61,904 nt of DNA. It comes from Clostridia bacterium (GTDB lineage Bacteria; Bacillota; Peptococcia; DRI-13; SV3-B141). Within the stretch, counting starts at the first letter, position 1; each line of letters starts with the position of its first letter. The DNA lies in contig JAHDSB010000062.1 of NCBI GenBank assembly GCA_018433015.1, positions 1 to 61,904 of the forward strand. The letters run 5' to 3'. The translations under genes and the position numbers were made by a program. A model generated the notes under the pieces. It saw only the letters and a program-made list of their open reading frames with translations, made no database searches and had not been told where the DNA came from. This document shows, in pieces, positions 47,741-61,904 of the stretch.

Positions 47741-47777
47741 TAAATCATAAATCAATAAGAATGAAAGGATGATATTT

Positions 47778-48710
47778 ATGAAAAAAAGTACACTTGATAA
47801 CAAGATCGACCAAGTACGAAAATTCAACCGTTTTTTTACACGGAAGATAGGTGTCTTACGTGAAGGATTATTACACAGTTCATATTCCCTAACAGAGGTG
47901 CGAATACTGTTTGAAATTGCTAATAGTGATAATCCAACGGCTACAAAGCTAAGCCGTGAGCTGGGCCTGGATGCCGGCTATCTTAGCCGTATTCTGGCTC
48001 GCTTTGAGGAACAGGGACTTACTGAGAGAGTTCGTTCAGAGCAGGATGGCCGACAGTTTCTTATTCGTCTTACACAGGAAGGCATGAAATTATTTTCACT
48101 TTTAGATCAACGCTCACGGGATGAGGTTGCCGAGATATTGAATGAGCTTAGTGAAGAAGAACAGCAGAAGTTTCTAAAATCTATGCACGATATTGAAAAT
48201 ATCCTTGATAAAAAAAACTTTAAGTTCTCTGAAGCATTTTTTCTAAGAACTCATCAGTCAGGAGATATGGGTTGGGTTATCCACCGTCATGGTGTACTGT
48301 ACGCGCAGGAATATGGTTGGGATGAACGTTTTGAGGCGCTTGTAGCTCAGATTGCAGCGGAGTTTATTAACAACTACAAGCCTGAACGTGAGAGATGCAT
48401 AATCGCAGAAATGAATGGTGAAATTGTTGGTTCGGTGTTCGTTGTTCAAAGCAGTGAGACTGTGGCTAAACTGCGACTCCTTTTAGTGGAACCAAAAGCA
48501 CGTGGATTGGGACTTGGAAGCCGTTTGGTGCAAGAGTGCATTACCTTTGCGAGGCGTGCCGGTTATCAGAAGCTTGTTTTATGGACCAACAGTGTACTTG
48601 AAGAAGCACGGCATATTTATGCAAAAGCTGGATTTAAACTGGTAGAACAGGAAGAACACCATAGCTTTGGAAAAGACCTTATTGGGGAGACGTGGGAGCT
48701 GGTTCTTTGA
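47778..48710 (+). CDS. MarR-GNAT fusion regulator/acetyltransferase
   Basis: The 310-residue two-domain protein has an N-terminal MarR winged helix (about residues 35-135, with ATKLSRELGLDAGYLSRIL as recognition region). A C-terminal GNAT acetyltransferase follows (about 160-310, with the acetyl-CoA loop VEPKARGLGLGSRLVQE). ATG 47778 follows AAAGGA at eight bases; the ATG at 47769 overlaps that site. Its stop overlaps the transporter start by one base. Such fusions often sense a small molecule and acetylate the same or a related compound. The substrate is unknown. Confidence 0.88.
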   Translation: MKKSTLDNKIDQVRKFNRFFTRKIGVLREGLLHSSYSLTEVRILFEIANSDNPTATKLSRELGLDAGYLSRILARFEEQGLTERVRSEQDGRQFLIRLTQEGMKLFSLLDQRSRDEVAEILNELSEEEQQKFLKSMHDIENILDKKNFKFSEAFFLRTHQSGDMGWVIHRHGVLYAQEYGWDERFEALVAQIAAEFINNYKPERERCIIAEMNGEIVGSVFVVQSSETVAKLRLLLVEPKARGLGLGSRLVQECITFARRAGYQKLVLWTNSVLEEARHIYAKAGFKLVEQEEHHSFGKDLIGETWELVL

Positions 48711-50002
48711 TGAGAAGTCCTCAAACAAATTCTGGAACTGAATCAGGACAAAACTTTTCGCAGATTTGTCTGTTGATTTGTTCTAATTTGCTTACCTCCA
48801 TAGGGGGAGGAACTGTATTAAGCGCAGCAAAAGGTATCTCAGGATTAACAGTATTTGGAAGTGGATCTATTTTTGCCTTTTTATCCGGAAGTGCACTTAG
48901 CTTAGGATTGCTAATAACAGTAAAATCATACTCTAAAAGTCGTGTATTGACCTATATTTCTATTGCAACTATCCTTAGTTCTATTACACTTTTGAGCATT
49001 GTTTTGGGGAACGCACTACTCATAGAGAAAAGCTTGCCTTTGTCTGGGGCTATGGCATGGATGTTTTTGATTGTTTTAATAATAAGATATGCATTTTGGT
49101 TCCTGAATCGATCACTACGCTCTAACATTGCTTCCATGATAAAGACCTCATGGCTTGCTTTGACAGAAGCTGCTTATTTTCTTGGGTTCATTATTGGCTT
49201 ATTATTAAGACCTATTGCCTTATTAGCGGGTGGCAATATTATAAGAGTTCTAATTTTTGATATCCTTTTGCTGTTTATTGTTGCGGTCTTTGATTATTTA
49301 CAGCAAAAATATGCCTGTGATAATCATAGCCAACACGTATACATCAAGAGGGGCAGAATAATTAAACAGCCATTTTTTTTATACCTTACAGGAGCATTAA
49401 CATTTTTGACTGTTGCGTTTCAAGTAACGATTTTTCATTTTGCAGACAGTGTAGCCCAGGCCGGTATGCCTGTTCCTAACACTATAGCAGATATTATACT
49501 TGCTCTGTTTTATGCAGGGGTAGCGGCAACGGCCACATTGTGTTTTTATTGGAAGCCTGACGTAGAAATTGTTGATAATAGATCAGTTCGAATTTCATTG
49601 CAATTAAATGGACGGATAGTCAGTATTCCTTTTTCATTGCTGGTTTTGCTTTCAGGCTTGCTGATTTTCCTGGGGATTTTTGGAATTACTACTGCAACCA
49701 ACTTAAGGAGTGATTCAACACTATGGTTAATGATCAGAGTAATTTCATTTTTATCAATAGGTATAGGAGCAGGTTTATTTGAATTTTTGTTTCTTAGCAT
49801 AATTGGCAGGATTAACTCATGGGGAAACTCGACGGTAGCTTTAGCAATTGGGCTTGTTTCTACTGGTGCTACAGTTGTAATGTTCCTTATGCTGCAATGG
49901 AAGCTGTACCCTGTAAGTAGGTTAGTTATCATTGTAATAGGGGCTTCATTAAGTATCTTTTTAATAGAGAAGGCTAAATTCCATAAAGACAAATTATATT
50001 AG
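48710..50002 (+). CDS. Polytopic membrane transporter, MFS-like
   Basis: The 430-residue protein has about eleven or twelve hydrophobic segments in an alternating pattern consistent with a major-facilitator-type carrier. I do not see a clear GxxxDRxGRR-type loop, so the family is tentative. ATG 48710 overlaps the MarR-GNAT stop (TGATG), giving translational coupling. Its low G+C matches the other two cargo genes. In this context it may export an amino acid or drug. Confidence 0.7.
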   Translation: MRSPQTNSGTESGQNFSQICLLICSNLLTSIGGGTVLSAAKGISGLTVFGSGSIFAFLSGSALSLGLLITVKSYSKSRVLTYISIATILSSITLLSIVLGNALLIEKSLPLSGAMAWMFLIVLIIRYAFWFLNRSLRSNIASMIKTSWLALTEAAYFLGFIIGLLLRPIALLAGGNIIRVLIFDILLLFIVAVFDYLQQKYACDNHSQHVYIKRGRIIKQPFFLYLTGALTFLTVAFQVTIFHFADSVAQAGMPVPNTIADIILALFYAGVAATATLCFYWKPDVEIVDNRSVRISLQLNGRIVSIPFSLLVLLSGLLIFLGIFGITTATNLRSDSTLWLMIRVISFLSIGIGAGLFEFLFLSIIGRINSWGNSTVALAIGLVSTGATVVMFLMLQWKLYPVSRLVIIVIGASLSIFLIEKAKFHKDKLY

Positions 50003-50089
50003 TCAGGGTTTGGGCAGTGGATAAAGTTAGAAATCGATAGTAAAGTGATAATTTTTAGTAATTAAGTTAATCAAAAGGAGGGAAAATTA

Positions 50090-51040
50090 ATGTCTTCAAC
50101 TAAAAAAGCAGTTTACTTTTTTTGTATGAACTCAAATATCGACCCAGTTGCAGGTCATGTTTTTAATGCACTATCAGAAGTGTGTAGTTTAAATGAGACA
50201 GATATTAATATTGATAATAATCCGGTGCTAAAACATTCGGATGATATAGGTAATGAATTCTATTTCGTTAAAACTTATAAAGTTGTTTGCCATGATTACA
50301 GATATTATCTGCCCATTATGAACCGTTATTTTTCTGATTTTGATATGGCAGGCCTTGTGACATGGCATGAGGGGCAAAATGCTCCGGATGGAATCCTATC
50401 AGTTCATACAACAGGAGATGTAGATACCGGTAATTTTGGAAACGCTAATCCTGTTTACATGCACAATTTATTATGGTCATTGGAGAAAAATCGAATTGAT
50501 GCCGGATTAGAGGATTTTAGGATTACCACGGAAGCAACTCACTGGTCTGGTATAATCAATAATGGTGGTACTCCAGATATGATACCTCAGTTTCCAGTAC
50601 CATTAGTTGATATTGAGATTGGGAGTACCCCACATAGCTGGTCAAACTACTCTGCAGCAAAAGTTATTGCACAGGCTCTTACCAACGTTTTTAATAATAG
50701 TGGTAAAACACTGAAAAACTTGCTTTGCGTGGGTGGTGTTCATTTTGAATCGGCTTTTGCAAGCGCCGTATTACAGACTTGGGAAGACAATGCTTTTGGT
50801 ATATCTCATATAATTCCCAACCACTGGTTGATTACAGGACAGTATGAAGGTGAAGGTGGGCAAGCAAAATTTGAAAATTGCATAAAGTCCATTAGAAGCG
50901 GTATCGTTGGTATTGTATTTCATGATAATTTAAAGGGTGCATACAAGGAACAGCTCAGAATACTTGGAAAGAAATATAATATTCCTGTTTTTAAGCATCA
51001 ATTGCTACGTCGACCTTCAGATATTCCTTGGAATGAATAA
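50090..51040 (+). CDS. DTD2/GEK1-like D-aminoacyl-tRNA deacylase
   Basis: The 316-residue protein matches, block by block, the archaeal DtdA and plant GEK1 family: TEATHWSG near residues 147-153 (family EATHHGP), DIEIGSTPHSWSN (family IEIGSSEEEW), and CVGGVHFES near 213-220 (family GGGHYAP). Those enzymes remove D-amino acids from tRNA. The second His and Pro of HHGP and the Tyr of GGGHY are changed (to W-S and F), so activity or substrate may differ. AAAAGGAGGG precedes ATG 50090. Members are mainly archaeal and plant, so a bacterial ICE copy is unusual. Confidence 0.75.
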   Translation: MSSTKKAVYFFCMNSNIDPVAGHVFNALSEVCSLNETDINIDNNPVLKHSDDIGNEFYFVKTYKVVCHDYRYYLPIMNRYFSDFDMAGLVTWHEGQNAPDGILSVHTTGDVDTGNFGNANPVYMHNLLWSLEKNRIDAGLEDFRITTEATHWSGIINNGGTPDMIPQFPVPLVDIEIGSTPHSWSNYSAAKVIAQALTNVFNNSGKTLKNLLCVGGVHFESAFASAVLQTWEDNAFGISHIIPNHWLITGQYEGEGGQAKFENCIKSIRSGIVGIVFHDNLKGAYKEQLRILGKKYNIPVFKHQLLRRPSDIPWNE

Positions 51041-51324
51041 AACAGTTTTTTGTCTCTTAGGGGGTTATTTGTGTAATTTTTAATGAAGATATATCTTGAT
51101 ATTGGCAAGTAAATACGAGAGGACTGGGAGCTATGTGAACGGAAAAGCAGAACTTCTAAGTTAAGCTATTAAAACTCAAAACGGCCAGAAAGAAAACTTG
51201 ATGGGATCAATAAAGCGCTTTATTTCTTTTAAGATGTTACGGTTGCTGGTTCGACTGCCGTGAAAATTATTCTTATTTATTGATTTAGGCGCCATTATTG
51301 TAAATGACAATTAAACTATCAGTG

Positions 51325-51409
51325 TTAAGGGCAAACCTGTCAAAAGGCAGGGACGCAAAGCCATAGGGTCTAAGGTGCTTTTAAGCACTATGACAGCCTG
51401 GCCGCCGCA
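51325..51409 (+). ncRNA. Cyclic-di-GMP-I (GEMM-I) riboswitch aptamer
   Basis: The conserved core is present in order: GGGCAAACC (51329-51337), the P2 hairpin CCTG/CAGG, GGGACGCAAAGCC (51350-51362), GGGTCTAA, a P3 hairpin GTGCTTTTAAGCAC (51375-51388) and ATGACAGCC with closing GGCCGCC (51390-51406). A terminator follows at 51424-51454, as in regulatory platforms. No open frame follows on the plus strand until 52543, with three terminators in between, so it appears to have lost its target gene. Positions 51041-51324 hold nothing I can identify. Confidence 0.82.
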
Positions 51410-52965: not shown

Positions 52966-53252
52966 TACCCCCGATTTTGCCCCGAAAATGAAATGGCTAT
53001 TAGAGGGACAACTTCTACCCCCTCTGCTGAACTTTGACAACTAAATAGGTGTTTTTCCGGTACGTTCCCCGTATATCCTGAAAGGGAAAGCCAGATTGCA
53101 GGTACGCCAAGACCACCTGTCCGGTATTATTCGGATTACAACCGAAGTATCACTACCATTTCGGTCAGATAAAGGTCAGGTGTGAGCGGTTAATACCCAT
53201 GCAATAAATAAATGTCGGTTACATTTAAGGCGAAGACACATACGGAGGGATA

Positions 53253-53453
53253 ATGATACTTCCGTCCAGCCACAGCCCTGCACAAGCAGGATCACGCAAT
53301 GGGGGCGGCTTGCAGAGAACCTGGGAGAGGTGTAATTCCTATGAGGACGGTCAGCCGCCGTTCGCCGGAAAATCTATGAACAATAAAACCAAAACAGAAA
53401 TGCAGGTTAGGGGTGCGCTTATTTGTACGAGTTACATGTGTATCCAATTATGA
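53253..53453 (+). CDS. Possible small ORF in the pre-integrase region (weak)
   Basis: A 66-residue frame begins after GGAGGGATA. Composition (Ser/Gly/Arg rich, no hydrophobic core) is poor for a folded protein. The 543-base interval 52966-53508 is otherwise without a gene. It may act as DNA or RNA: an 11-bp inverted repeat lies at 53409-53463. I list it only as possible. Confidence 0.2.
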   Translation: MILPSSHSPAQAGSRNGGGLQRTWERCNSYEDGQPPFAGKSMNNKTKTEMQVRGALICTSYMCIQL

Positions 53454-56065: not shown

Positions 56066-57733
56066 ATGGCCGTGAAAAAATCAGAACTATATTCCCTACT
56101 ATGGGAAGCGTGTAATAAACTAAGAGGTGGCGTAGAGCCGTCAAGATACAAAGACTACGTACTTGTATTGTTGTTTTTTAAATACGTATCAGATAGATAC
56201 AAGGGACAGCGATTTGCTGAGTTTACAGTAAGCGAAGGTGCATCATTTGATGACTTAATTGCTGCGAAGGGCAAGAGTGATGTCGGTGAACGAGTAGATA
56301 AGATTATCCAAAAGTTCCTAGAGGAAAACCGTCTTCAAGGTTCTCTTCCTGATGTTAGTTTTAATAACCCGGATGAATTGGGTTCTGGCAAGGAACTAGT
56401 TGATAAAGTTTCTGGACTTATTGCTATATTCCAAAATCCTGCTATTGACTTCAGAAGTAACAGAGCTAGTGGTGATGACATCATCGGAGATGCTTATGAG
56501 TACTTCATGATGAAATTTGCTCAAGAGTCTGGTAAGAGCAAGGGTCAATTTTATACACCTAGTGAGGTGTCACGTATCATTGCTAGACTTATTGGTATTG
56601 GTGATATTAGACAAGAAACAGGTAAAAAGTGGACACTTCATGATCCTGCAGCGGGCAGTGGTTCTTTATTAATTCGTGCAGCAGATGAAGCTCCTATGGA
56701 TGAAAACGGTGACTCTATAGTTACAATATTTGGTCAGGAAAAATACCCTGATACTGCAGGTTTAGCAAAGATGAACTTTATCCTACATAACAAAGGTACA
56801 GGTGAAATTAAAAGTGGTAATACATTAGCAAACCCAGCATATACTGATGATTTTGGTGGGCTTAAGAAATTTGACTTTATTGTTATGAATCCACCTTTTT
56901 CTGATAAGGACTGGACAGATGGAATCAAACCATCAGAAGATAAATTTAAGAGATTTGATGGGTATGGCATTCCACCAGAAAAGAATGGTGACTATGCTTG
57001 GTTTTTACACGTCTTAAAGGCCTTAGATAGTAATGGTAAGGCAGGGATTATTCTGCCCCATGGTGTGCTATTTAGAGGGAATATAGAAGAGACCATTAGA
57101 AAAGCAGTTCTTGATAAGCGATACATAAAGGGCATAGTTGGTCTGCCTGCTAATTTATTTTACGGCACAGGTATTCCTGCTTGTATCATAATTATTGATA
57201 AAGAAAATGCCGATAATCGTGAAGGTATCTTTATGGTAGATGCAAGCCGTGGATTTAAGAAAGACGGTAACAAAAATCGCCTTCGTGAACAAGATATTGA
57301 GAAGATAGTACAAACATGCATAAATAAAGAAGAAATTATGGGATATTCTCGCTTTGTTACCTATAAAGAAATCTTAGAAGAAAACGATGGTAATTTGAAT
57401 GTTCCTCGATATATCCAAAAGATTGACGATACATTGCCGCAAAATATTTCATCCCATCTAAAGGGTGGAATTCCGGAAGTTGATATTGATTCAATAGAAA
57501 AACTATGGAAAGTTTCACCAAAGTTAAAACAAGAGCTATTTACCCGTGTTGATGAAAAGCATAACGTCTATAACCTTGCTACGTCACCAAACGAGATAGA
57601 AACGGTTATCTCTGAGGATGAAAATATCAAGAGCCAAAAGGATACCGAGTGTGGTGAACTATTCGGGGCTTGGAGAAATGCAGTAAAAAATGTGCTATTA
57701 AATATCAATGTAGATACAAATCCAAGGAGTTAA
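56066..57733 (+). CDS. hsdM: Type I R-M methyltransferase HsdM, N-terminal part (frameshifted)
   Basis: The 555 residues carry the HsdM N-terminal helical domain, the SAM motif DPAAGSGSLL (near residue 192) and the catalytic NPPF (near 274). The frame ends early at 57733. The sequence around CCAAGGAG (57722-57729) suggests loss of one A: adding it restores NPKELIRNIGLEIL and joins the next frame. A joined protein would be about 896 residues. The methylase catalytic core lies before the break. Confidence 0.85.
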   Translation: MAVKKSELYSLLWEACNKLRGGVEPSRYKDYVLVLLFFKYVSDRYKGQRFAEFTVSEGASFDDLIAAKGKSDVGERVDKIIQKFLEENRLQGSLPDVSFNNPDELGSGKELVDKVSGLIAIFQNPAIDFRSNRASGDDIIGDAYEYFMMKFAQESGKSKGQFYTPSEVSRIIARLIGIGDIRQETGKKWTLHDPAAGSGSLLIRAADEAPMDENGDSIVTIFGQEKYPDTAGLAKMNFILHNKGTGEIKSGNTLANPAYTDDFGGLKKFDFIVMNPPFSDKDWTDGIKPSEDKFKRFDGYGIPPEKNGDYAWFLHVLKALDSNGKAGIILPHGVLFRGNIEETIRKAVLDKRYIKGIVGLPANLFYGTGIPACIIIIDKENADNREGIFMVDASRGFKKDGNKNRLREQDIEKIVQTCINKEEIMGYSRFVTYKEILEENDGNLNVPRYIQKIDDTLPQNISSHLKGGIPEVDIDSIEKLWKVSPKLKQELFTRVDEKHNVYNLATSPNEIETVISEDENIKSQKDTECGELFGAWRNAVKNVLLNINVDTNPRS

Positions 57734-58755
57734 TTCGTAACATTGGCCTTGAAATCTTGCATGATTTCGAATCGGCACAGCTTTTAGACAATTATGATGT
57801 GTACGATTTCTTGCTAAATTATTGGAATGAGAAAATGCAAGATGATGTGTATGTAATTAAGGCTAGTGGATATGAGGCTGGTCGTGAGATTGAATATGTA
57901 TATGCTCAAAAGAAAGCAAAAGATGAAAGTGGAGAAGAAATAAAAGTTGACGATACCTCTAAAATGAAGTCGTTTGAAGGGGCGTTAATCTCAAGAGAGA
58001 TTATCGAGAATGAGTATTTTGAAAAAGAGTTAATTGTTCTTAATAAGTTGAGAGAAAAATCAACATTGCTTGAATCTGAAATAGATGAAATGCGTGAAGA
58101 AGAATCTGGCGATGAAGGTTTGCTGGTAAATGCCCTAAATGAAAAAGGTGACAGCATTCCAAAGGCAAATCTTAATAAACGGATTAAGGAACTCGAAAGT
58201 AAAAAGACCTCACCTGTAATGAGCGATATTACAAAGTTGATTGAATTGTTAGATGAGGGCAATACAATTGAAATGGAGCAAATCGTTCAAGATAACAGTG
58301 AGCTAAAGGGCTACGAACTTAGAAATAAGAATGGGTCATTTGGTAAGGCCAAGCTAAAAGCCGCATTAAAAGAGGCAAACGAAAAAGCGGTTATGCCTGA
58401 AATTTATGCAGATGAATATAACGCTCTGCTTGCATATCAGGCTAAGGTTTCAGAAAAAGAAGAATCTGATAAGGCTATCAAAGAGGCACAAAAGACACTT
58501 GATGAACTAGTGCTTGCTAAATATGGCGAATTATCAATTGATGAAATTAAGCACTTGCTTTTTAATAAGAAATGGATGGCAAGACTTGAGGGTGATATTG
58601 TAGATGCAATTGATCAAGTATTAAATGAACTAGCATCAAAAGTGGTGTTAATCGCAAAACGCTATGAGCATACTCTAGGTGAGATTGAAGAAAAGACAGC
58701 TCAGTCAAAGATTAAGGTAAAGTCTGCTCTGGAAAGGATGGGGTACATATGGTAG
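57670..58755 (+). CDS. hsdM: HsdM C-terminal part (after one-base deletion)
   Basis: From about 57724 this frame gives the HsdM C-terminal helical region that contacts HsdS (KELIRNIGLEILHDFESAQL onwards, then Lys/Glu-rich helices). The residues from 57670 to 57723 are out-of-frame reading of the first part. It has no convincing ribosome binding site. Its end overlaps hsdS by 7 bases. Confidence 0.8.
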   Translation: MEKCSKKCAIKYQCRYKSKELIRNIGLEILHDFESAQLLDNYDVYDFLLNYWNEKMQDDVYVIKASGYEAGREIEYVYAQKKAKDESGEEIKVDDTSKMKSFEGALISREIIENEYFEKELIVLNKLREKSTLLESEIDEMREEESGDEGLLVNALNEKGDSIPKANLNKRIKELESKKTSPVMSDITKLIELLDEGNTIEMEQIVQDNSELKGYELRNKNGSFGKAKLKAALKEANEKAVMPEIYADEYNALLAYQAKVSEKEESDKAIKEAQKTLDELVLAKYGELSIDEIKHLLFNKKWMARLEGDIVDAIDQVLNELASKVVLIAKRYEHTLGEIEEKTAQSKIKVKSALERMGYIW

Positions 58756-59972
58756 CTTATCCTAGTGATTGGAGTGAAAGCATTCTTGATGATGTCATTA
58801 AAATAAAAAGGGGTGCATCCCCTCGTCCAATAGAGAGTTATTTAACTTTCAGTTCATCAGGAGTGAACTGGATTAAAATTGGCGATGCCCCACAAGATGG
58901 GAAATATATTATTTCTACGGCAGAGAAAATAACAAAAGATGGGGCTAAGCGTTCGGTACGGGTATGTCCAGGTGATTTTATTTTATCAAATTCAATGAGT
59001 TTTGGGAGACCCTACCTTTTAAAAATTGATGGGTGCATACATGACGGATGGTTAAGGCTATACGATTTTCAAAATGAAGTTGATAAGGACTTTCTTTATT
59101 ATTTGCTTTCATCATCAAGTGTCAAGGGGCAATATGATTCTTTTGCTGCCGGAAGTGGAGTCCAAAATCTTAATAAAGAGGTTGTAAAAAAAGTACAAGT
59201 TCATTTACCCTTGCTCGCTGAACAACAAGCCATCGCCTCTGTTCTATCCGACTTCGATGAGCATATCAATAATCTAGCAAAGCTTATCGAAAAGAAAAAA
59301 GCTATCCGTGATGGTGCTTTGGAGGATTTGGTTAGTGGCAAAACTAGGGTTGATGGTTTTGAAAAGGAATGGGAAACTGTTTCTTTTAACCAAGTGATTA
59401 AACCAAAAGCAAGAATTGGATGGCAAGGTTTAAAAAAGGAAGAGTATTTAAGAAGTGGATACAGTTATTTAATTGGGGGCACTGATTTCCATAATGGAAA
59501 GGTCAATCTGGAGAACATATCATACTTATCAAAAGAACGATACGATATGGATTCAAATATTCAAGTCGAGTCAAATAATGTACTGGTAACAAAGGATGGA
59601 ACGATTGGTAAGGTAGCACTGGTTCCTAAATTGGATAAACCAGCAACTCTGAATAGCGGAGTTTTTGTTTTCAGAACAACGTCTAGCCTTCTTCCAACGT
59701 TTCTCTATAGAGTTTTGTTGTCCTCAATTTTTAAAGAGTTTATTAATACATTGTCCGCAGGTTCTACAATAAAGCATCTATATCAAAAAGATTTAAGTAA
59801 TTTTGAGTTTAGAATGCCACAGGATATCAGAGAACAACAAGCCATCGCCTCTGTCTTAACAGCTATGGATGAAGAAATCGAATCTCTCGAAATAGAAAAA
59901 GAGAAGATAATGGGAATTAGAGAAGGTGCAATGGATGACCTTTTAACAGGCCGTGTGCGTCTTAAATTATAG
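58749..59972 (+). CDS. hsdS: Type I R-M specificity subunit HsdS
   Basis: The 407-residue protein has two target-recognition domains, each followed by a conserved helix with the wording REQQAIASVL or AEQQAIASVL, then DFDEHINNL or AMDEEIESL. Recognition is of a bipartite site. It overlaps the hsdM end. It is intact, although both hsdM and hsdR are broken. Confidence 0.92.
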   Translation: MVAYPSDWSESILDDVIKIKRGASPRPIESYLTFSSSGVNWIKIGDAPQDGKYIISTAEKITKDGAKRSVRVCPGDFILSNSMSFGRPYLLKIDGCIHDGWLRLYDFQNEVDKDFLYYLLSSSSVKGQYDSFAAGSGVQNLNKEVVKKVQVHLPLLAEQQAIASVLSDFDEHINNLAKLIEKKKAIRDGALEDLVSGKTRVDGFEKEWETVSFNQVIKPKARIGWQGLKKEEYLRSGYSYLIGGTDFHNGKVNLENISYLSKERYDMDSNIQVESNNVLVTKDGTIGKVALVPKLDKPATLNSGVFVFRTTSSLLPTFLYRVLLSSIFKEFINTLSAGSTIKHLYQKDLSNFEFRMPQDIREQQAIASVLTAMDEEIESLEIEKEKIMGIREGAMDDLLTGRVRLKL

Positions 59973-59985
59973 GGAGGTTAAGTTT

Positions 59986-61770
59986 ATGTCTGTTGATTTA
60001 GAAAGAAAATTACAAAATAAGGTCCTCCACTGGTTAATAGATAAAGAAAAAGACGGTGGTTTAGGCTACACATATCTTGGCAACCTTGAAGATCAAGACA
60101 ACACACCAGTTAAAGAGGACTTGCTAAAGAAGAATCTAGAAAAGCGCGGTTATACGAAAGACCAAATTTCAAAAGCAGTAAATGAACTTGTTACTAAGGC
60201 AAGTAATCAAGTGGATAGCTTATATCAAACCAATAAAGAGGTCTATTCCCTACTTCGTTACGGAAAGCAAGGTGTAAAGGACGATAATAAAAATCGTCAA
60301 ACTGTGCATTATATCGACTGGGATAATGTAGAGAATAATGATTTTTATGTTGCTGAAGAAGTAAGTGTACTTTGTTTTAATCAGATAGAAAGAAAACGTC
60401 CTGATGTGGTGCTGTATATAAACGGCATCGCTCTAGGCGTATTTGAGTTAAAGCGTTCATGCGTTAGTATTGGCGAAGGTATTCGTCAAAATCTTACAAA
60501 TCAAAAAAAAGAGTATATTCAGCCTTTTTTTAGTACCGTTCAATTAATTTTTGCAGGTAATGAGGCAGAGGGGCTTAAGTACGGTACTACCGAAACGGCT
60601 GAAAAGTATTTTCTTAAATGGAAAGAAGATATCAAAGCCACCGATGACCTTTCCGCAACTATCAAGGATATTCAATCTAAAGAAAAGAATAAGCTAAGAG
60701 ATGCTATAGTCTCTCTTTGTCAAAAAGAACGTTTTTTATCGTTGATTTATGACTTCATTATCTTTGATGCTGGAGTGAAGAAGGTTACAAGACATAATCA
60801 ATACTTTGCAAATATTGCTGCAAGGAAAAGGATTATTGAAAAAGAGGGAGGTATCATTTGGAATACACAAGGTTCCGGTAAGTCGTTGATAATGGTTTGG
60901 CTGGCTAAGTGGATTATTGAAAATTTGGCAGATAGCCGTGTAGTTATCATTACAGACCGTGATGAGCTTGATGACCAAATAGAGAGCCTATTTATTGATG
61001 TTAATGAGAAAGTTAAAAGAGCAAAGAGTTGCTCTGATTTAAGAGAAATACTAAATAAAAATGATGATTCTATCATATGCTCTTTAATTCATAAGTATGG
61101 ACACAATGCAGGTAAACAATCCGATGTGGATCAGTATCGGAAAGAGTTATTAAAGGACTTACCTGCTGACTTTAAGGCAAAAGGAAACATTATTGCCTTT
61201 ATTGACGAATGCCACCGTACAAACTCGGGGAAATTACACGAGGCTGTTAAAGTATTGATGCCTGAAGCAGTGCTTATAGGTTTTACAGGAACACCGCTAC
61301 TTAAAAAGGACAAGAAAACCAGCCTTGAAACATTTGGATCGTATATTCACACTTATAAATTTGATGAGGGTGTGGAAGATGGCGTTGTTCTTGATTTGCG
61401 TTATGAGGCAAGAGATGTTGACCAAGATCTATCCAATAAGGAAAAGGTAGATTTGTGGTTTGATAATAAAACCTTTGGTCTTACTGAAAGAGCAAAGACA
61501 AATTTAAAACAGAGTTGGACTTCAATCAATAAACTATATAGTTCAAGACAAAGACTTGAGAAAATTGCAGGGGACATTATCTTTGATATGAATTTAAAAC
61601 CGCGCCTTAAAAATGAACGTGGAACGGCTATGCTGGTTGCCAACAGTATATACGAGGCTTGTAGATATTGGGATATCTTTACTAGCAATGGCTTTAATAG
61701 GTGTGCTGTTGTCACCTCTTACGAACCTTCAGCCGCTAGTGTAAGAACTGCTACGAGCGACTTATGTATT
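59986..61770 (+). CDS. hsdR: Type I R-M restriction subunit HsdR, truncated by an IS
   Basis: The first 595 residues of HsdR are present; the family is usually about 1000. Visible are the N-terminal nuclease (PDVVLYINGIALGVFELK near residues 139-156), Walker A TQGSGKS near 293 and DECH near 407. At codon 596 the IS21-type end (TGTCAACTGAAAG) begins and adds ten foreign residues to the stop at 61803. The C-terminal helicase motifs and translocase domain are lost. ATG 59986 follows GGGAGGT. Confidence 0.9.
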
Positions 61771-61904
61771 TGTCAACTGAAAGTTCCCCTGTATTATAGA
61801 TGAAATTTCCCCTAGAGGAGTAAAAAAATTATTGTTCTTCAAGCCATCGTTTTGTTTCTTTTAGCCTGTAAGAATTTCCATTCATATTCACTATATATGA
61901 TTTA
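61771..61904 (-). mobile_element. End of an IS21-family element (runs off the window)
   Basis: It begins with the IS21-type TGT terminus and carries two related 12-base repeats (TGAAAGTTCCCC at 61778-61789 and TGAAATTTCCCC at 61801-61812), the multiple terminal repeats typical of IS21. A partial istB lies inside. It interrupts hsdR exactly at a codon boundary. The other end is outside the window. Confidence 0.8.
61829..61904 (-). CDS. istB: IstB-like transposition helper, C-terminal end (partial)
   Basis: On the minus strand the last 24 codons read GNSYRLKETKRWLEEQ and stop at 61829. The SYRLK ending is typical of IstB proteins, the AAA+ helper of IS21 transposases. The rest lies beyond the window. 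Confidence 0.8.
   Translation of the reverse strand, partial: KSYIVNMNGNSYRLKETKRWLEEQ

Follow-up and report, generated by a model that had tools for sequence, protein, structure and literature searches.

A predicted MarR-GNAT and DTD2-like operon on a conjugative element of a Clostridia bacterium: a possible inducible detoxification module

Introduction

The closest described relatives of the system reported here are the archaeal and plant DTD2 proteins (GEK1; PF04414; solved structures PH0006, 2gfq, and AF0625, 1yqe), the DTD1 proteins (Dtd, PF02580), and the bifunctional HTH (MarR)/GNAT acetyltransferases. A 2024 account confines DTD2 to archaea and land plants and assigns DTD1 to bacteria, and it reports that aldehyde-modified D-aminoacyl adducts are removed by DTD2, not by DTD1 (PMC10942605). 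Our literature searches found neither a bacterial DTD2 nor a characterised MarR-GNAT protein with a known substrate, the latter family being known by its NCBI name only.

We analyzed a window of DNA (the whole stretch under study, 61,904 nucleotides) from a Clostridia bacterium in which a MarR-GNAT gene, a membrane protein gene and a DTD2-like gene follow one another. The DTD2-like protein (gene 3) resembles archaeal and plant DTD2 in its fold (Z about 31), its conserved core His, Glu and Gly residues, its single-domain build and its similar size, but it is about 40 residues longer, is only about 20–30% identical to them, and belongs to a separate bacterial clade marked by six core-adjacent changes and an invariant C12. 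Unlike archaeal and plant DTD2, part of this clade appears to be under MarR-GNAT regulation, and most of the bacteria that carry it also have DTD1. Gene 3 and DTD1 presumably share the job of clearing D-aminoacyl-tRNA, although their folds are unrelated and a separate DTD1 gene coexists in the host. Gene 1 has the domain order and acetyl-CoA motif of the bifunctional acetyltransferases and, as in several unrelated bacteria, the sequence TTGAC-N3-GTCAA before the gene; those relatives usually stand alone, whereas gene 1 shares one operon with a DTD2-like gene.

Operon Architecture and Predicted Control

The window is a conjugative element, judged by eye from relaxase, coupling-protein, VirB4-like and serine-recombinase genes among its open reading frames, and the operon sits in it as cargo, with the transfer genes on one side and the recombinase on the other. 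All three reading frames are open and lie in tandem on the plus strand (Table 1), with the ATG of gene 2 overlapping the TGA of gene 1; an alternative ATG for gene 1 is possible at 47769, three codons upstream. The initial annotation, which placed three genes in line behind a palindromic operator and called the first a MarR-GNAT and the third a member of the deacylase family, was confirmed in its coordinates, in the palindrome and in both family assignments.

Table 1. Coordinates of the operon, its predicted control sites and nearby features of the window.
Feature	Position	Strand	Remarks
Gene 1, MarR-GNAT fusion (winged-helix repressor and N-acetyltransferase)	47778–48710	+	Pfam; acetyl-CoA loop
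Gene 2, putative transporter with 12 TM helices, of no known family	48710–50002	+	430 aa
Gene 3, DTD2-like (PF04414) putative aminoacyl-tRNA deacylase	50090–51040	+	316 aa; RBS AGGAGGG
Predicted palindromic operator, TTGAC-AAA-GTCAA	47711–47723	.	67 bp upstream of gene 1
Imperfect second copy of the operator-like site, TTGACATAAACAA	47690–47702	+	21 bp upstream of palindrome
Candidate MarR-GNAT operator site of the operon, TTGACAAAGTCAA			
c-di-GMP-I riboswitch aptamer	51320–51409	+	78.4 bits
Rfam pemK RNA motif	53250–53344	+	67.9 bits; upstream of serine recombinase gene
Genes for type I restriction-modification (HsdM-, HsdS- and HsdR-like as judged by eye)	56066–61803	+	Next to recombinase, to contig end

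The palindrome overlaps the −35 element of the best promoter-like site (TTGACA-18-TATATT, 11/12), and TTGAC-N3-GTCAA has a single copy in the 3.75-Mb host genome, at this operon. The tandem arrangement of the palindrome and its imperfect copy had zero occurrences in shuffled sequence, and a similar doubled arrangement lies upstream of the orthologous gene at locus L097. A palindrome that overlaps the operon's own promoter and is kept between loci points to predicted autoregulation.

Gene 1 is an intact fusion of an N-terminal MarR winged helix (Pfam E 4e-12) to a C-terminal GNAT domain (E 1e-15), and its acetyl-CoA loop, RGLGLG, agrees with the pattern R/Q-x-x-G-x-G/A. Related fusions occur in nine plasmid records, mostly solo or adjoining unrelated genes; one lies beside an MFS transporter gene (Priestia, L017) and another near resistance genes (Listeria, L018). 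The host genome also holds a second, partial MarR-GNAT match (L023; G000:C34:6160–6786) that is 31% identical and carries an internal stop.

The protein encoded by gene 2 has 12 membrane helices by hydropathy, arranged as six plus six on either side of a loop of about 28 residues, and for this reason a transporter role is plausible. It had zero matches in Pfam, NCBIfam and PHROG, to the major facilitator transporters or to any other family, and a single-sequence structure model (pLDDT 47.6) was too poor for a fold search. No relatives were found in viral contigs, in plasmids, or in seven other DTD2-like genomes or records. Among the 398 sampled genomes of the phylum, a decayed remnant of 52–86 residues was present only in G211; a short match in G338 was set aside as spurious. 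A decayed fragment of the gene 2 family lies at L123:7243–7467, beside a cupin-like reading frame.

A Separate Bacterial Clade of DTD2-Like Proteins

Gene 3 matches the Pfam family PF04414 (tRNA_deacylase) with 104.5 bits against a curated cut-off of 33.6. Its AlphaFold model, built from an alignment of 22 bacterial sequences, has a pLDDT of 93.6, and the nearest solved folds are PH0006 (Z 31.6) and AF0625 (Z 30.3), followed at a distance by the next at 10.7; its N-terminal part resembles nucleosidase/phosphorylase folds with Z about 10. Fourteen core positions are common to the bacterial clade and 23 archaeal DTD2s (H93, H106, G109, E148, T150, H151, E176, G178, S179, W184, G215, G216, H218, and H240). 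Next to this core, the bacterial proteins differ from archaeal DTD2 at six positions (N to D110, H to W152, P to G154, F to D174, K to N244, and D to H278).

In an unrooted tree of bacterial sequences and those of a single archaeal phylum, the bacterial DTD2-like sequences formed their own clade with support of 100/100, and the branch that joins it to archaeal DTD2 is about 4.8 changes per site long. Because of this long branch and the differing core-adjacent positions, the substrate of the bacterial clade may have changed. Gene 3 reached at best 63 bits against the NCBIfam D-aminoacyl-tRNA deacylase equivalog models (PRK03995 series), below their cut-off of 272. Given the separation in the tree, the changed positions and the low NCBIfam scores, we classify gene 3 under PF04414, with a mode of action that is probably like that of DTD2, rather than as a proven DTD2. 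Recent transfer from archaea is not favoured, the bacterial clade being separate and long-branched.

Members of the clade come from a Synergistales relative's phylum and from a small number of Bacillota. Within the phylum of the window, PF04414 was found in only one of the 398 sampled genomes, and within its class in one of 46, in both cases the window's own genome. It was present in 20 of the 188 genomes from the Synergistales relative's phylum (two or three DTD2-like copies in some), in three of the six genomes from the order of G435, and in Acetoanaerobium noterae. No relatives of the gene were found in viral contigs. DTD1 is encoded by 17 of the 19 carriers searched, the window's host included (G000:C182), so the idea that the DTD2-like gene substitutes for a missing DTD1 was rejected; since most carriers encode both, the DTD2-like enzyme appears to add to ordinary D-aminoacyl-tRNA proofreading.

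A Recurrent MarR-GNAT and DTD2-Like Pair With a Common Predicted Operator

A MarR-GNAT gene lies beside the DTD2-like gene at seven of the 26 DTD2-like loci (window included), in both gene orders. It is directly upstream at L097 and L100, upstream with one membrane protein gene between in the window, and directly downstream at L080, L087, L093 (counted on a reading frame of the MarR half only), and L094; the genomes behind these four downstream cases are related Synergistota, and the cases are not independent of one another. A GNAT gene downstream of the DTD2-like gene at L006 was a weak, decayed match (E 0.012) and was left out of the count. Because the remaining 19 loci have no adjacent MarR-GNAT, the two genes are not obligate partners. 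The MarR-GNAT proteins of paired loci fall in two distant parts of their tree, and a single clade was rejected (AU p 3e-52), which indicates that the pairing formed, or was re-made, more than once.

TTGAC-N3-GTCAA stands 55–78 bp before the first gene at all seven paired loci (with one mismatch at L097), whichever of the two genes comes first. The 300 bp preceding the DTD2-like gene were examined at 18 unpaired loci; of these, 17 were testable (L082 has 1 bp of upstream sequence only), and none had the site; the association of site and pairing has a nominal Fisher p of 2e-6, for loci that are not fully independent. The same site precedes solo MarR-GNAT genes on unrelated plasmids of Listeria, Azospirillum, and Polymorphobacter, and a Bacillus MarR-GNAT has a near match upstream. 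Its presence at paired loci and at solo MarR-GNAT genes, together with its single copy in the host, makes TTGAC-N3-GTCAA the probable MarR-GNAT operator, with the DTD2-like gene probably part of the MarR-GNAT regulon. T-box or riboswitch control of DTD2-like genes was not found at the 22 loci searched.

The membrane protein gene does not share in this conservation. It is absent from every other DTD2-like locus, and no second example of the trio was found among the viral contigs, plasmids and genomes searched. At L097, the nearest intact relative (76–78% identity to the window's genes), the pair is 20 bp apart and lacks the membrane gene. At L101, where the DTD2-like protein and that of the window share 84% identity, the membrane gene is likewise missing, and a scar remains of the last 15 MarR-GNAT codons (FGKDPIGETGELLL*; L101:9664–9708) directly before the DTD2-like gene; that gene looks intact and runs off the end of its contig. 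These two loci indicate that the pair is the ancestral arrangement of the window's lineage. Gene 2 is a window-specific insertion between two conserved genes and a later arrival. Thus the functional linkage of MarR-GNAT and deacylase suggested by the initial annotation is upheld by adjacency at seven loci, in both orders and with the same operator, whereas conservation of the trio is not. The initial annotation is thus partly supported: its general idea stands, and tolerance of D-amino acids is still a hypothesis.

Gene neighbourhoods at other DTD2-like loci hint weakly at amino acids and tRNA editing. Adjoining genes include those for AzlC/AzlD at L097 (AzlC recognised by eye, AzlD through Pfam), an S58 aminopeptidase at L074 and, at L008, a PLP enzyme that resembles diaminopropionate ammonia-lyase; LysE lies close to L093 and an Asp/Glu racemase close to L087. 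Because the carrier lineages ferment amino acids, we did not count this enrichment as proof. A solo B3/4 gene (PF03483) is divergently adjacent to a second-type DTD2-like copy at L075, L076, and L090, and at L093 a B3/4 gene and a tRNA_bind (PF01588) protein lie two to three genes from the paired copy; together these four loci may represent a second tRNA-editing neighbourhood. L008 (NZ_CP154629.1) is labelled a plasmid, but at 2.63 Mb and with DTD1 it is probably a chromosome.

Proposed Function and Alternative Explanations

Our best reading is that the operon is inducible and acts against misacylated tRNA, or against an amino-acid-like compound that causes misacylation. More fully, we propose a detoxification operon that regulates itself, is cargo of an integrative conjugative element, and would sense an amine, acetylate its free form and clear its tRNA-bound form, and we assign this a probability of roughly 0.5. 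The MarR half of gene 1 would bind TTGAC-N3-GTCAA over the −35 element and repress the operon until released by a small amine or amino-acid-like ligand, after which the GNAT half would acetylate the toxic amine in its free form. Transport of this amine, acetylated or not, across the membrane would probably fall to gene 2, and tRNA already charged with the amine would be freed by the DTD2-like hydrolase. The genes, the fold, the common core residues, the operator sequence, the conserved pairing and the coexistence with DTD1 are observed; the ligand, the substrates, the order of action and the direction of transport in this scheme are our suppositions. Recurrence of the pair and of the same DNA site in unrelated bacteria makes a real detoxification module probable.

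With DTD1 retained by the host and by most carriers, the most likely targets of the DTD2-like enzyme are adducts that DTD1 leaves untouched. The leading candidates are D-amino acids, which remain a plausible substrate of the module, or N-modified (e.g., aldehyde-adducted) D-aminoacyl-tRNAs. We suggest more tentatively, and hold as possible rather than probable, that the clade is an ancient bacterial branch of DTD2 that persists beside DTD1 and has come under a MarR-GNAT sensor-acetyltransferase, giving an inducible rather than housekeeping proofreading module borne by a conjugative element. Coexistence with DTD1 would make these bacteria a direct test of DTD2-only tasks, such as those on aldehyde-modified D-aminoacyl-tRNA; the inducer of the module could be approached through the paired MarR-GNAT, and the pairing places a widespread fusion family in a context linked to function.

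The operon could instead be a cassette that confers resistance to an antibiotic resembling an amino acid, or to an aminoacyl analogue. The GNAT would acetylate the drug, the membrane protein would export it, and the DTD2-like protein would hydrolyse drug-tRNA or another drug ester or amide; its natural trigger would then be a secondary metabolite and not D-amino acids. A GNAT, a MarR regulator and a transporter are the usual shape of a resistance operon, and the cargo position on a conjugative element, the Priestia and Listeria plasmid contexts and the altered core-adjacent residues all fit. However, most relatives sit at loci that look chromosomal and lack transport and resistance genes, several of them lie in amino-acid-metabolism neighbourhoods, and matches to resistance families were zero, and we regard this explanation as unlikely, though the strongest of the alternatives. 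A search for defence-system membership gave weak HTH matches only.

Next in rank, and likewise improbable, is a metabolic role in amino-acid fermentation, with the DTD2-like clade having given up tRNA deacylation to hydrolyse an amino-acid ester or amide, or a nucleoside-linked compound, and the MarR-GNAT acting as a catabolic regulator. The long branch from archaeal DTD2, the N-terminal likeness to nucleosidase/phosphorylase folds, the ammonia-lyase, aminopeptidase and racemase neighbours, and the presence of up to three paralogues per genome are what such a role would lead one to expect, but every strictly conserved DTD2 core residue is kept, and the B3/4 and tRNA_bind proteins beside several copies point to tRNA. 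That three unrelated cargo genes came together by chance is very improbable. Cargo regions are mosaics, and the lack of conservation of the membrane gene agrees with chance in its case; for the pair, its recurrence in both orders with a common operator and the single operator copy in the genome contradict chance, which survives for the membrane gene only.

Other Features of the Element

Downstream of the operon, the c-di-GMP-I riboswitch aptamer is followed by no plus-strand reading frame of at least 40 aa before the next gene, which lies on the opposite strand; the aptamer is possibly an orphan left by cargo exchange. The pemK RNA motif and the type I restriction-modification genes lie farther along the element (Table 1).
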